NCBI GenBank assembly: GCA_003599795.1
Contig: QZJQ01000042.1
Location: 1-34,737 of the forward strand
From: Nitrospiraceae bacterium
Lineage (GTDB): Bacteria > Nitrospirota > Thermodesulfovibrionia > Thermodesulfovibrionales > UBA1546
Direction: 5' to 3'
Length of the DNA stretch: 34,737 nt
This document shows, piece after piece, positions 1-31,133 of the stretch. The stretch's first letter is position 1; each line of letters begins with the position of its first letter. Under the pieces are notes generated by a model that was not told the origin of the DNA, did no database searches, and saw nothing but the letters and a program-made list of their open reading frames with translations. The position numbers and the translations under genes are program-made.

Positions 1-750
1 ACTTATGATATTGAAGGGATTGACTCGGCCCATAAACTTGCGATACTTGCATCGCTGGCATATGACATACCTCTTTCATTTAATGATGTTTATAAAGAGG
101 GCATAACCAGAATAACCTCTCAGGACATCGGCTTTGCAGGAGATCTGGGTTATAAGATAAAACTTCTTGCTATTGCAAAGGCTTCTGACAACAGAGTGGA
201 ACTCAGGGTTCATCCGACAATGGTTCCAAAGGATTATCTTATATCAAAGGTTGACGGTGTTTTCAATGCAATTTATGTGCAGGGAGACGCTGTAGGCGAC
301 ACCCTCTACTATGGAAGAGGCGCAGGCGATATGCCGACAGGAAGCGCGGTTGTAAGTGATGTTGTAGATATAGGGAAAAGAATCATGATACATGATACAG
401 GATACAAGATTCAGGATAAAAAATATCATGCATCGTGCATCGTGCATCGTGCATCATCAGCGCTTAAAATCAAAAAGATAGAAGACATTGAGGCTATGTA
501 TTATTTTAGGTTTACGGCATTTGACAAGCCGGGCGTTCTCTCAAACATCTCAGGTGTTCTCGGAAAGTTTAATATAAGCATAACATCTGTTATTCAGAAG
601 GGCAGGCGTCTCGGAGAGGCTGTTCCTCTGATTGTTCTTACCCATACGGCAAAAGAAAAAGATGTTGTTAGCGCTGTTGCGGAGATTGACAGGCTTTCCG
701 TTGTCGCTGACAAAACGCTCTATATAAGAGTTGAAGGAAAAGAAGAATAG
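1..750 (+). CDS. hom: Homoserine dehydrogenase, C-terminal part with ACT domain (5' end outside window)
   Basis: Frame 1 is open from base 1 (TYDIEGIDSAHKLAILASLAYDIPL...ITSQDIGFAGDLGYKIKLLAIAK...GDAVGDTLYYGRGAGDMPTGSAVVSDVVDI), the typical homoserine dehydrogenase C-terminal catalytic region, followed by an ACT domain (FTAFDKPGVLSNISGVLGKFNISI). Confidence 0.93.
   Translation, partial: TYDIEGIDSAHKLAILASLAYDIPLSFNDVYKEGITRITSQDIGFAGDLGYKIKLLAIAKASDNRVELRVHPTMVPKDYLISKVDGVFNAIYVQGDAVGDTLYYGRGAGDMPTGSAVVSDVVDIGKRIMIHDTGYKIQDKKYHASCIVHRASSALKIKKIEDIEAMYYFRFTAFDKPGVLSNISGVLGKFNISITSVIQKGRRLGEAVPLIVLTHTAKEKDVVSAVAEIDRLSVVADKTLYIRVEGKEE
384..460 (+). repeat. Bipartite heptanucleotide-period repeat element, copy A, in frame inside hom
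   Basis: CATGATAC ATGATAC AGGATAC AAGATTC AGGATAA AAAATATC ATGCATC GTGCATC GTGCATC GTGCATC ATC. Two arms of 7-nt units, roughly inverted relative to each other. A homologous copy is at 11131-11202 on the minus strand. Confidence 0.85.
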
Positions 751-8810: not shown

Positions 8811-11213
8811 TTAAATGTTTTCAGTCATTTCCCATACGCCGCAGGGGCATATTCCAGCACAGAAGCCGCATCCTATGCAAAGGTTGTCATCAACAACATA
8901 TTCATAAGAGCCGTCTTTATGTTCAACTCTGCTTATCGCTCCCCAGTAGCATGTTGCCTCACACATGCGGCAATCTCGGCATGTGGCGCAGGACATGCAC
9001 CTCTCTGCCTCTTTCTCAATGGAAAAATCACTGCGGCAGGCATCGTAGTATTCTGATTTAATTCTCTCATAGGCTATGGGCTGCTTTATCTCAGGCCATC
9101 TCGGGGCATGCATAATCTGATAGTTAATGAAGTCTGCCGCAAGCCGTCCCTGTCCTATTGCATGGGTTACAAGCCCAAGGCCTGTAGCATCTCCTATTGC
9201 ATAAACTTTCACGTCAGAGGTCTGGTAATTTTCATTGACGGTTATCCAGCCTTTTTCCGCATGAACCGAAGGAGGAAGAAAATCAAGCTGCGGCATGTCG
9301 CCGATTGCCATTACAACAAAATCTGCATCAACTGATGAACCGTCTTTGAAAAAAAGTCTGCCGGCCTTTTTGTCATATCTGTCTGTAAGCTTGGGCCAGA
9401 GCACCTGAGTACCTTTTGCCATTGCTATTCTCATCTCTTCACCGAATGCGGCAGGCTTTTGTATATCAACAGCAGTGACAGATTCTGCGCCATTATTATA
9501 TGCCTCTGAAGCAGAGTCCATTCCCACATTCCCCGCGCCAATTACAACAACTTTTTTGCCTTTGAGGTCAGGATGTTTGCCGAGATTTATATCCTTAAGA
9601 AAATCATAGGCAGACACCGTATCCTCAGAGCCTGAGAATGAAATTTTTCTCGGCTGGTGCGCTCCGCAGGCAAGGACCACAACTTCATGTCCTTTATAAA
9701 TTTCATTGAATTTGTTTTTGTCCACTTTTGTATTAAGATGCAGATTTACTCCCAGCTCCGCGAACCTCGATATTTCCTTTTCAAGTATCTCATGGGGTAA
9801 GCGCTCTCTCGGAATGCAGAGCTCAATCTTTCCTCCAAGCTTGCCTGTGGATTCATAAAGGTCAACAGCATGCCCTTTTAATGCAAGCTGCCAAGCAGCG
9901 CTCATACCTGCAGGGCCTGCGCCTATCACAGCTATCTTATGGCCCGTAGGCTTGTCTTTTTCAGGGGCAGGAAGATTAAGAGAAAGCTCTCCGAGCCTGT
10001 CTATTGCCAGCGGTTTGTCAAGCCTGGCCCTTGTGCATGCCTGCATGCAGAGGTTAGGGCATATCTCGCCGCAAACAGTTGCAGGAAGAGGGCTGTATCT
10101 TAATACAAGCTCAAGCGCCTCGTTCAGTTTTCCCTGCCGCATTAATGAGGCCCTTTTATGCGACGGGATATGTGTCGGGCATGCATATGCGCAAGGAGGC
10201 GCGTATTTTTCGTTCGCCCATAAAGGCTTGTTCCTTCTGTCAGCGCCGGTTGTGATGTATGGAAGCAATGTAAGCTCATGGTCCAGATATTCCGCAAATA
10301 AGCCTCCCTGTCCAACCTCTTTATCCCACATATTTTTTCTGAAATCGGAAGTGGACATGCCGAGCCATTTTCTACCGCGTTTTTCCTGAGGCGTATAAGC
10401 AATGAGTTTTTTCCAGTCATCAGGAGATTTTGTAAGCTCAGTTAGATAAGCTGTTCTATCAATGGCCTCAAGAAAAGGCCTCATGTTTGTCCTAAGCCAT
10501 TCCCAGTCCTGAGGCGTCAGATTCACGAGCTTTACATCTTTTTCACTGTAGCCCTGAATGGGGCCTCTGAAATATATTGTCCCGCCGACCATTCCCACGC
10601 AGGGGCGGTAGCCGAGTATGTTTTCAGGATTTCGCGGATCTACTCCGCAGACAACAGCAATGCCTCCTGCTTTGAATTCGGCAAATGAGTCTCCTACATT
10701 TCTGAAATACCATGACTGAGGAGGATTGAATCTCGGGTTATGTTTTGTCATGGTGTCGCATCTTGCACCGCCGCTTCCCTGAACGTATAAAACCCCCTGA
10801 GCGGCAGCATTGAATGCGCCGTTTGTCGCATCGCCGAGCACAGTTATCTTTGCGCCGCAGTTAATCCATCCCACATCATCAGAAACGCTTCCTTTAACGA
10901 GTATTTCAGTTCCCGGCATTCCCATGCTTCCAAGCCTCTGCCCGACAGGCCCTTCTACGGTTATGCCTACAGTCTCTCCTCTGGGCCAGATTCTTCCCCC
11001 GATGCCGTGCTGGCCGTCGGCTACTATGTGAAGCTCTCTTGCGCCTTCCTGAACTGCATGCTGTATCTGTTCCTCAAGAATACGTGAAGGAATGCGCCTG
11101 CCTTTGACAGCGCCGTGTATGGGGATAGCAGATGATGCATGATGCATGATGCATGATTCACGATTTTTTTTATCCTGCATCCTGTATCTTGTATCCTTCT
11201 TTTTAGCACGCAT
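8811..11213 (-). CDS. Fusion of glutamate synthase GXGXG domain with GltD-like FAD/NAD(P) oxidoreductase and 4Fe-4S clusters
   Basis: N-terminal GltB C-terminal-type domain (GQHGIGGRIWPRGETVGITVEGPVGQRLGSMGMPGTEILVKG), then PTHIPSHKRASLMRQGKLNEA, GAGPAGMSAAWQLA, GAGNVGMDSA and a C-terminal CIGCGFCAGICPCGV. Confidence 0.9.
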   Translation of the reverse strand: MRAKKKDTRYRMQDKKNRESCIMHHASSAIPIHGAVKGRRIPSRILEEQIQHAVQEGARELHIVADGQHGIGGRIWPRGETVGITVEGPVGQRLGSMGMPGTEILVKGSVSDDVGWINCGAKITVLGDATNGAFNAAAQGVLYVQGSGGARCDTMTKHNPRFNPPQSWYFRNVGDSFAEFKAGGIAVVCGVDPRNPENILGYRPCVGMVGGTIYFRGPIQGYSEKDVKLVNLTPQDWEWLRTNMRPFLEAIDRTAYLTELTKSPDDWKKLIAYTPQEKRGRKWLGMSTSDFRKNMWDKEVGQGGLFAEYLDHELTLLPYITTGADRRNKPLWANEKYAPPCAYACPTHIPSHKRASLMRQGKLNEALELVLRYSPLPATVCGEICPNLCMQACTRARLDKPLAIDRLGELSLNLPAPEKDKPTGHKIAVIGAGPAGMSAAWQLALKGHAVDLYESTGKLGGKIELCIPRERLPHEILEKEISRFAELGVNLHLNTKVDKNKFNEIYKGHEVVVLACGAHQPRKISFSGSEDTVSAYDFLKDINLGKHPDLKGKKVVVIGAGNVGMDSASEAYNNGAESVTAVDIQKPAAFGEEMRIAMAKGTQVLWPKLTDRYDKKAGRLFFKDGSSVDADFVVMAIGDMPQLDFLPPSVHAEKGWITVNENYQTSDVKVYAIGDATGLGLVTHAIGQGRLAADFINYQIMHAPRWPEIKQPIAYERIKSEYYDACRSDFSIEKEAERCMSCATCRDCRMCEATCYWGAISRVEHKDGSYEYVVDDNLCIGCGFCAGICPCGVWEMTENI
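11131..11202 (-). repeat. Bipartite heptanucleotide-period repeat element, copy B, in the N-terminal coding region of the glutamate synthase fusion gene
   Basis: Minus-strand reading AAGAAGGATACAAGATACAGGATGCAGGATAAAAAAAATCGTGAATCATGCATCATGCATCATGCATCATC; same architecture and strong similarity to 384-460. Peptide KDTRYRMQDKKNRESCIMHHASSA versus HDTGYKIQDKKYHASCIVHRASSA. Confidence 0.85.
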
Positions 11214-20567: not shown

Positions 20568-21521
20568 TCACATAAAAAACTGCAGAATGTATCTGATTGA
20601 CAGGGAAACAATGATTAGGCCCAGTATTATCTTGATAAACTGCTGCGGGACAAACTTCTGAAGCCTTGCTCCGATATACATGCCTGCAAAACCGCCGACT
20701 CCGAATAGAATGCCCAACGGCCAGTCGGGCATTGAAGATGTGTTATCCACTATCAGCGGAATACTGTAAAACAATGCGCCTGCAATTGATGTCATAAATG
20801 TCCCCATCAAAGTAGCGCCTGCAATCGTGTAGGCAGGCAGATGCAGAAATGAAATGCAGAAGGGAGCGATAATTGCGCCACCGCCAATGCCGTAAGCGCC
20901 GCCTATAATTCCCACAATAAATGACAGAATGAACATAATCACGGGATTGAATGAAAATGTCTCACCCCAAAACTCATATTCAACCCTTTTTAATGATACA
21001 TGGCTTGTCTTTACTACTGCATGGGAAGGGATGCCGGCAGTTAATCTTGAGCATTGATGATTTTTAAATTTTTCTTCAAGCGCCCTTGCAGCGGAAGGTT
21101 TCGTCTTTCCTTTGCGTATAAGCTCTTTAAGCAGCCGGACTCCGATATAAAGCAATACGCATCCTACAAAGAATTTAAAAACCTTTGGATCAGGGAGATA
21201 TAAAACCCTTACATGAAAACCAAAGAATACTCCTGGCAGAGTGCCGGCAATTATTACCCACGTCAACGGCCATGCCATTCTGCCTTCTTTTATGTAGCGG
21301 TAAACTCCGCTCGGAATTGCAAAGATGTTGAAGACATGGTTTGTCCCGCTTACCGAAGGCGCTGTGTAATTAAGTACGCTCATCTGGAACGGAAGAAGGA
21401 GGAATGCGCCTGATATGCCGCCCATTGAGGTAAAAAAAGAGATTACCATTGCAACCAAGGGCGGCAACAGGATATTAGTCTTAACACCGGAAACAGGAAA
21501 CAGTATGTCCAGAAAATCCAT
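20568..21521 (-). CDS. TauE/SafE-family sulfite exporter / TSUP membrane protein
   Basis: Multi-TM protein with two similar halves (MGGISGAFLLLPFQMSVLNYTAPSVSGTNHVFN; IGGAYGIGGGAIIAPFCISFLHLPAYTIAGATLMGTF). Confidence 0.9.
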   Translation of the reverse strand: MDFLDILFPVSGVKTNILLPPLVAMVISFFTSMGGISGAFLLLPFQMSVLNYTAPSVSGTNHVFNIFAIPSGVYRYIKEGRMAWPLTWVIIAGTLPGVFFGFHVRVLYLPDPKVFKFFVGCVLLYIGVRLLKELIRKGKTKPSAARALEEKFKNHQCSRLTAGIPSHAVVKTSHVSLKRVEYEFWGETFSFNPVIMFILSFIVGIIGGAYGIGGGAIIAPFCISFLHLPAYTIAGATLMGTFMTSIAGALFYSIPLIVDNTSSMPDWPLGILFGVGGFAGMYIGARLQKFVPQQFIKIILGLIIVSLSIRYILQFFM

Positions 21522-21539
21522 GGGATATTATACAAAAGC

Positions 21540-21575
21540 AAGTTAAAAGTTAAAAGTTAAGAGTTAAGAGTTTAA
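21540..21575. repeat. Short heptanucleotide tandem repeat (AAGTTAA-like), about 4-5 units
   Basis: AAGTTAA AAGTTAA AAGTTAA GAGTTAA GAGTTT in the divergent intergenic region between the TauE-like gene and nadE. Confidence 0.85.
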
Positions 21576-21594
21576 AAAAATAAAGATAGCCTTA

Positions 21595-30161: not shown

Positions 30162-31133
30162 CTATTTCTTTTTTTCTTTTTCTATGACGGCTTTTTTCTT
30201 CAGCATTTCATCCGATTTTTTTTCATCGCCGGATTTACGGTAAGCATCCGACAGGGAATCAAGCGCCTCTAAAACCCCTTCTGTATCTCCTGCGCTGCTG
30301 CTTACGTCATAAGCCCTCATGTAAAACATCACGCTGTCTGGGAAATCCCCTTGTTTTAAAGAGAGCATTCCCAATCCCCGCAAGCTCATGGCGATCTTTT
30401 TGCTATTTCCAAGCTCTTTGTCTATTTCAAGGGCTTTCATATAATAAGCCTTTGATTCCGGATAATTGCCCTTCTTCGCGTTTATCTCCGCGATAAGCGC
30501 CAGGGAGTTAGCCTCCTCGCCTCTTTGTTTATTTTCAATATTCAGCTTCAGCGCGGCATTTGCCGTTTTCAGCGCTTCATCGTATTTGCCTTCCGCAATG
30601 TTAATCCTTCCCATTAGATTCCATCTGCTTCCCTCAAACATTCCCTTATTCAAAGATAATGACTTGCTCACCCAATCTTTGGCTTTCGTGATATTTTTCT
30701 CCTTTAAATAAATTCTTGCCTTCTCATACGCCGCGTCTGATCTGACGTCGTTGTTTATATCAGGCATGGAAAAGGCTATGTCTATGAATTCACGGGCATT
30801 CGGGAGATTACCTTTTTTCTGGTGGATAACGGAAATATTTATAAGATTAACGGCAATTCCCTGCGTATTTTCAATTGAACGGTTTATCTTAAGAGCCTCC
30901 ATGTAATGAGCCAATGCCCTGTCATAACTGCCCTCTTCAACGGCTTTGGCAGCCTTCTGGTTATGTTCAATTGCCTTTTCATGAATTGCAGAAAGAGTCG
31001 GAGCAGACGGGCCGCCGCAGCCGATAAACATAAAGAATAGCGCAATAGCGCAATAGCGCAGTCGCACAGTAGTGACTTTTACTCTGCTGCTCTGTTGCTC
31101 TACTGCTCCATCTTTATTCATAGCTGTCTCCAT
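30162..31133 (-). CDS. TPR-repeat lipoprotein
   Basis: Lipobox-like FMFIGCGG after a hydrophobic stretch, followed by about six TPR units ([38 protein letters not shown]). Confidence 0.85.
31036..31109 (-). repeat. Bipartite octanucleotide-period repeat inside the 5' coding region (signal peptide) of the TPR lipoprotein
   Basis: Plus strand AATAGCGC AATAGCGC AATAGCGC AGTCGCAC AGTAGTGA CTTTTA CTCTGCTG CTCTGTTG CTCTACTG CTCC; two arms of 8-nt units around an AT-rich centre. Confidence 0.8.

Follow-up and report, generated by a model that had tools for sequence, protein, structure and literature searches.

Short hairpin elements built of tandem heptamers, one of which lies in the homoserine dehydrogenase (Hom) gene of a Nitrospiraceae bacterium, are dispersed through the genome of this bacterium, sit in frame in enzymes and also in intercistronic gaps, nearly always in sense orientation, are replaced by elements of other classes at orthologous sites, and change slowly at their pairing positions. 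We favour, with somewhat better than even confidence, the explanation that they are non-autonomous hairpin elements that insert by way of a putative mobiliser, belong to several classes of one family and re-invade fixed permissive sites in transcribed DNA. The window, that is, the whole stretch of 34,737 nucleotides analysed, comes from a genome of 1.4 Mb that is 75% complete (G000); G001 denotes Nitrospirae bacterium GWF2_44_13 (MHEE01), which is 100% complete. Every genome used is a metagenome-assembled genome (MAG), one per species. Gene calls (simple codon log-odds caller) and class labels come from our own scripts, and host proteins are named from reading of their sequences, except for three window proteins scanned with Pfam.

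Hairpin element in the homoserine dehydrogenase gene

The first-pass annotation had described a heptanucleotide repeat element at 384-460, inserted in frame in Hom. The observation is confirmed, the heptamer units being present as described and the bounds being 385-455 (Table 1). The Hom reading frame stays open across the element, and the insert, at residues ~129-152, does lie between the catalytic and ACT domains (Homoserine_dh, PF00742, residues 1-122; ACT, PF01842, residues 168-232; Pfam). The earlier picture of two heptamer series was correct as to the heptamers but overlooked that the two tracts, scored independently by TRF at 387-418 and 425-455, form an inverted repeat with systematic mismatches. 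The proposal that the sequence is a dispersed element rather than native protein was borne out by a genome search with the window element, which gave 47 BLAST matches in G000, ~31 of them spanning the greater part of the query at E < 1e-8, and the homologue said to lie in an unrelated gene was found in a glutamate-synthase-like (GltB-like) ORF. The window also holds an 8-mer-class hairpin, whose ortholog is kept in G001 (G1_C15:37705), and an AGTTAAR-class tract, which lies 18 bp from a permease-like ORF (20568-21521).

Table 1. Repeat elements and host genes located in the window
Feature	Position	Strand	Remarks
GATNCAR-class hairpin element	385..455	+	In frame, Hom linker; sequence, TRF, genome copies, nhmmer 73 bits
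5' arm, five heptamers	385..419	+	385-391 ATGATAC, 392-398 ATGATAC, 399-405 AGGATAC, 406-412 AAGATTC, 413-419 AGGATAA (GATNCAR, shifted register)
Loop	420..427	+	A-rich, 8 nt, AAAATATC
3' arm	428..455	+	ATGCATC (428-434) and three GTGCATC (435-455); unit RTGNATC, reverse complement of GATNCAY
Homoserine dehydrogenase (host)	ORF 1..750, partial	+	5' end beyond the window; Pfam
Second GATNCAR-class element	11128..11197	-	In frame, few codons past the start of the GltB-like ORF
Glutamate-synthase-like protein (host of second element)	ORF 8811..11213	-	GXGXG, Pyr_redox_2, Fer4; Pfam
8-mer-class hairpin	31036..31108	-	(GAGCAGYA)n - loop - (GCGCTATT)n; TRF; same architecture; in frame, near N-terminus of TPR protein (ORF 30162-31133)
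AGTTAAR-class heptamer tract (AAGTTAA)	21540..21576	.	Single arm visible; TRF; divergent gap

Elements of the GATNCAR class consist of (GATNCAR)3-5, an A-rich loop and (RTGNATC)3-5, with a modal length of 69 bp (range 53-98), and the loop consensus of the 69-nt copies is GATAAAAAAAATC. The two arms are distinct, the R closing the unit of the 5' arm (position 7) and opening that of the 3' arm (position 1). In 30 distinct 69-nt copies, Watson-Crick pairing of the arms reached 94-100% at unit positions 1, 2, 3, 5 and 6, compared with 17% at position 4 and 1% at position 7. Because positions 4 and 7 both pair less than shuffled partners, an RNA structure maintained by compensatory change was ruled out. 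Adjacent units were less alike than random and units two apart slightly more alike (0.231 versus 0.183), and a variance test on the variable positions indicated slight genealogical structure; mean pairwise identity at these positions against column shuffles is uninformative by construction.

A perfect heptamer repeat gives the same seven residues from all three frames, and stops are rare in the sense reading of these repeats: at least one open frame was found in 33 of 33 in-gene copies read in sense and in 20 of 33 read in antisense. Predicted stability was higher for the antisense RNA in 67 of 99 copies, with means of -23.1 kcal/mol for antisense and -19.7 kcal/mol for sense.

Spread, host genes and orientation

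G000 has ~40 copies. A profile search of 1.56 Mb from G001 found 85 copies (66 strong); the 0.38 Mb of G000 searched in this way, picked because of its matches, contained 43 copies, 33 of them strong. A two-arm pattern run over 296 genomes of the phylum matched mainly in the bacterium's own family, and its reversed control gave zero matches in the same genomes. Among the relatives, G008 is element-rich, as are G000 and G001, and G009 and G012 are element-free. Since the window element has 47 matches in its genome and the reversed control none, the GATNCAR repeats are not a product of chance. Among 85,462 GTDB genomes, the pattern was found in 102 stretches, some of them from MAGs that bear the label Dadabacteria or Deltaproteobacteria, and whole-genome searches of two Dadabacteria, one Deltaproteobacteria and one 'Nitrospira sp.' MAG gave 27 to 39 matches each. 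In the few proteins compared, the MAGs of Dadabacteria and Deltaproteobacteria share no more than 29-41% identity with G001; with their labels taken on trust, they are therefore probably distant hosts.

A 'Nitrospinota' MAG, KR13, was discounted as an extra phylum because its proteins are 88% identical to those of G001 and its match coordinates coincide with those of G004, of the same genus. The name of this MAG, KR13_N2.mb.31 (JAHILQ; L126, L133, L136, L143), looks wrong. The exact pattern had no match in IMG/VR, and none was found in plasmids or phages, which argues against carriage by either. Zero matches in the window to Rfam 15 at gathering score ruled out a known RNA family, and the open-licence papers searched held no description of a GATNCAR hairpin element.

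About 44% of the copies are inside genes, and about half are at junctions between genes of one operon. The hosts include CarB (carbamoyl-phosphate synthase large chain), with two copies, a RimO-like methylthiotransferase, with two in G000 and three in G001, and MurD, HypF, a cation P-type ATPase, a CobB-like synthase and a sensor kinase; no functional grouping was seen among the host genes. Twenty-five copies overlap no called gene; in most of these the distance from the preceding stop is 0-34 bp and that to the following start 0-31 bp.

In G000 and G001 together, all 43 strong in-gene copies with coding sequence on both sides were in sense orientation. Co-directional gene junctions carried 50 sense and 4 antisense copies, two copies were at convergent junctions, and divergent gaps had no strong GATNCAR copy, though they make up 18% of intergenic bases. 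The other genomes gave 30 of 30 in sense inside genes and a sense-to-antisense ratio of 33:6 at junctions. Counted against the inferred leading strand, the copies split 32:21, and 12 of 39 neighbours within 20 kb were in opposite orientation. These two counts ruled out replication as the determinant; orientation tracks transcription, not replication. Stop codons alone can explain the sense bias inside coding sequence, but they cannot do so in intergenic gaps, where the cause may be harm done in the mRNA by antisense copies, whose RNA folds more tightly, or else insertion steered by transcription. An orientation that follows transcription makes the choice between RNA-level function and orientation-selective insertion directly testable.

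Class replacement and change at orthologous sites

TRF detected a strong excess of repeats of period 7, then 8, in G000 and G001, heptamers being the commonest period. At least eight other classes share the hairpin architecture in these two genomes, with 7- or 8-mer units: AGTTAAR/YTYAACT, AAATTCA/AATTTTG, AAGGGGTC/TCGAACCC, GAGCAGYA/GCTACTGC, GGTGAATC/ATTCACCC, GTCAGCT/GCTGAAC, AGGGATT/AATCCCC and GACAGTGA/CACTGACA. Their distributions differ, AGTCAGR occurring in 27 of 148 genomes of the phylum and the AGTTAAR hairpin in only two. Heptamer arrays of AGTCAGR are abundant and widespread in the phylum (e.g. G091, G046, G082 and G133), with up to 52 pattern matches, in G091.

Sites orthologous between G000 and G001, with flanks ~90% identical, carried the same class, no element or another class. 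Another class stood in the sister genome at 4 coding sites against ~0.2 expected (P ~7e-5; ~4/16 versus 1.4%) and at 5 junction sites against ~1.3 expected (P ~0.006), the distinct sites being counted by eye and the background rates computed separately. A single codon position just past the start region of the GltB-like gene held six classes among nine related species. There, after ATGCGTGCTAAGAAG, GATNCAR was found in G000 and G004, the 8-mer GGGTCAAA/CTCTGACA in G001, G003 and G008, AGTTAAA in G005, GAGCAGTA in G007, GGGGTCA in G002 and GCAGAAGC in G010; the site was empty in G009 and in members of four other families. The expectation that other homoserine dehydrogenases have no such insert held for G009, G011, G012, G013, G015, G025 and G059, which have a plain linker, but not for all: AGTCAGG lies in the Hom linker of G005 and G007, an 8-mer in that of G003, AGTTACA in that of G010, and GTCAGAA in those of G037 and G046. 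The linker is therefore a recurrent target. Nested and chimeric elements, at G0_C33:5728-5893, where a GAGCAGTA hairpin stands between AGTTAAR arms, and at G1_C15:374398-374501, suggest that newer elements insert into older ones. The exchange of classes at fixed sites provides a natural experiment on the spread and tolerance of short repeats in proteins and operons.

Among orthologous copies, nine near-identical pairs had changed by 10.4% at positions 4 and 7, by 10.8% in the flanks and by 0.9% at the other five positions, in a count that labels units by one genome's consensus and thus favours conservation. A symmetric count over 28 pairs, some of them counted from both genomes, pointed in the same direction, with 24.4% at variable, 11.5% at flanking and 4.6% at constant positions, a pattern that gain or loss of units can mimic. 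Orthologous copies also differ by 7- and 21-nt indels. The much slower change of the pairing positions than of the flanks at shared sites suggests selection at each locus rather than a decaying parasite, and does not readily fit the conventional decay of a selfish element. No near-identical paralogue of the species-specific copies was found, the best being 79-93%; this may reflect copying long ago, loss from the sister genome or a donor beyond the available sequence, and is not proof of non-templated writing. Empty sites showed no clear target-site duplication, their boundaries being blurred by indels and remnants.

Origin of the elements and comparison with known repeats

If the elements are non-autonomous insertions, as we favour, the copies would be placed by a putative trans-acting enzyme, and newcomers would land in or replace older elements because hairpin loops and permissive linkers would be the preferred or the sole tolerated targets. 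The arms pair at unit positions 1, 2, 3, 5 and 6, with positions 4 and 7 kept unpaired. Sense copies would persist because their frame stays open and their mRNA hairpin is the weaker one, and the ~24-residue peptide would be a translated, tolerated by-product. At the sensitivity used, neither Y1_Tnp (PF01797, IS200/RAYT) nor RVT_1 (PF00078, reverse transcriptase) was found in G000 or G001; Y1_Tnp is present in several relatives. We also entertain, far more tentatively, an exchange of hairpin cassettes, in which a system would write many interchangeable classes of tandem 7- or 8-nt hairpin in sense at fixed transcribed sites, overwriting the previous class, after which the paired positions would be selected and positions 4 and 7 would vary freely; such an exchange would have an RNA-level function and would not be ordinary transposition.

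A functional mRNA element, in which selection keeps the hairpin as a site where polycistronic mRNA is bound or processed and a change of class is a functional swap, is conceivable, although we regard it as doubtful. It accords with the sense orientation of intergenic copies, including the 25 purely intercistronic ones, where stop codons are irrelevant, and with both counts of change, in which the constant positions lag behind the flanks and, in the nine pairs, positions 4 and 7 keep the flank rate; the same proposal has been made for TAACTGA repeats (MacGregor, 2015; PMC4679880). It fits less well with the ~44% of copies that lie in conserved enzymes unrelated to one another, of which CarB and RimO hold several each, with presence that is not conserved between sister species, with arms that show no pairing covariation and pair below chance at positions 4 and 7, and with hosts that form no visible functional group. 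Growth of the 7- and 8-mer tracts in place by local replication slippage and hairpin template switching, with no mobile element, which is the view taken of long simple sequence repeats, is unlikely. The same consensus and the same loop recur at at least 80 loci and in other phyla, the total length has a mode of 69, the two arms are distinct, neighbouring units resemble each other less than random ones do, and the sense orientation would be left without a reason; these observations stand against the prevalence of heptamers among repeat periods in G000 and G001, the 7- and 21-nt indels and the slight likeness of units two apart, which speak for slippage.

Insertion through RNA into transcribed DNA would directly yield sense orientation and would suit the bias that follows transcription and the lack of copies in divergent gaps, but with PF00078 absent from G000 and G001 it appears very improbable. 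Still harder to credit is a REP/REPIN-type element with a RAYT (IS200-like TnpA) as its transposase: abundant palindromes, small and imperfect, on both chromosome strands, together with Y1_Tnp in several relatives, recall such a system, yet Y1_Tnp is absent from G000 and also from G001, the 100%-complete genome that is richest in copies, and neither unit nor flank composition showed GTAG or CGTC, the tag at one end by which REPs are defined. The chance of an assembly or binning artefact is negligible; all genomes are indeed MAGs, but the same elements recur at orthologous sites in independently sequenced MAGs, in frame, with diverged flanks and lineage-specific substitutions. Among the known systems that come close is the bacterial MITE, which is likewise small, has terminal inverted repeats (here, arms complementary at 5/7 positions) and has no enzyme of its own. 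For the GATNCAR element, the searches for Y1_Tnp and RVT_1 revealed no parent transposon and no target-site duplication is clear, so that it may differ from MITEs in both respects; unlike them, it consists of tandem units throughout. With REP/REPIN elements and their RAYT it shares short imperfect palindromes and high copy number, and it departs from them in its tandem units, its in-frame position inside genes and the lack of a RAYT in G000 and G001.

The resemblance to Rickettsia palindromic elements that had been pointed out holds for behaviour, with in-frame copies in unrelated conserved enzymes, but not for membership. Rickettsia palindromic elements fall into ten families and are not known to be built of tandem units. 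Both kinds are small dispersed palindromes in frame in unrelated metabolic genes, with several families per genome (PMC10969869). Compared by length and habit, the Rickettsia elements measure ~150 bp, whereas those described here have a modal length of 69 bp, 7- or 8-mer units and conserved mismatches, are as frequent between operon genes as in genes, undergo class replacement and occur in other phyla. They offer a clear case outside Rickettsia, of different design, of mobile-like DNA translated inside bacterial core enzymes.

The TAACTGA repeats of marine Beggiatoaceae are direct repeats without predicted structure and are nearly all intergenic (MacGregor, 2015; PMC4679880). Like the present elements, they are dispersed tandem heptamers close to where many unrelated genes begin, most of them forward in orientation, and are patchy across phyla (PMC4679880). 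Here, in contrast, the unit is GATNCAR, there are two complementary arms, ~44% of copies are in frame in genes and many unit classes coexist; the TAACTGA location just upstream of starts is matched only by the junction half of the GATNCAR copies, in which the paired arms are additional. By definition, the GATNCAR element is neither a Rickettsia palindromic element nor a TAACTGA heptamer. As far as the cited accounts describe them, long simple sequence repeats whose units are heptamers (Mrazek, 2007, via PMC4679880; also PMC4692102) share the excess of 7-nt units and are simple arrays ascribed to slippage, as opposed to the paired, dispersed and polar elements found here. The heptamer repeats of many bacteria may be halves of hairpins, not simple products of slippage.

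A second kind of dispersed palindrome, ~CTCGCCTCAGGCGAGTCGCCGAGGAGAC, was observed beside or inside heptamer tracts at ~7750-7890 of L266 (G000:C33) near 16700 of L262 (G000:C15) and near 442981-443080 of C15 in G001. At the GltB-like N-terminal site in another family of the order, a CCCCCCTAATCCCCCCCTTGGTAAGGGGGGG palindrome is present (L299; G018:C31), so this site attracts a different repeat type as well.
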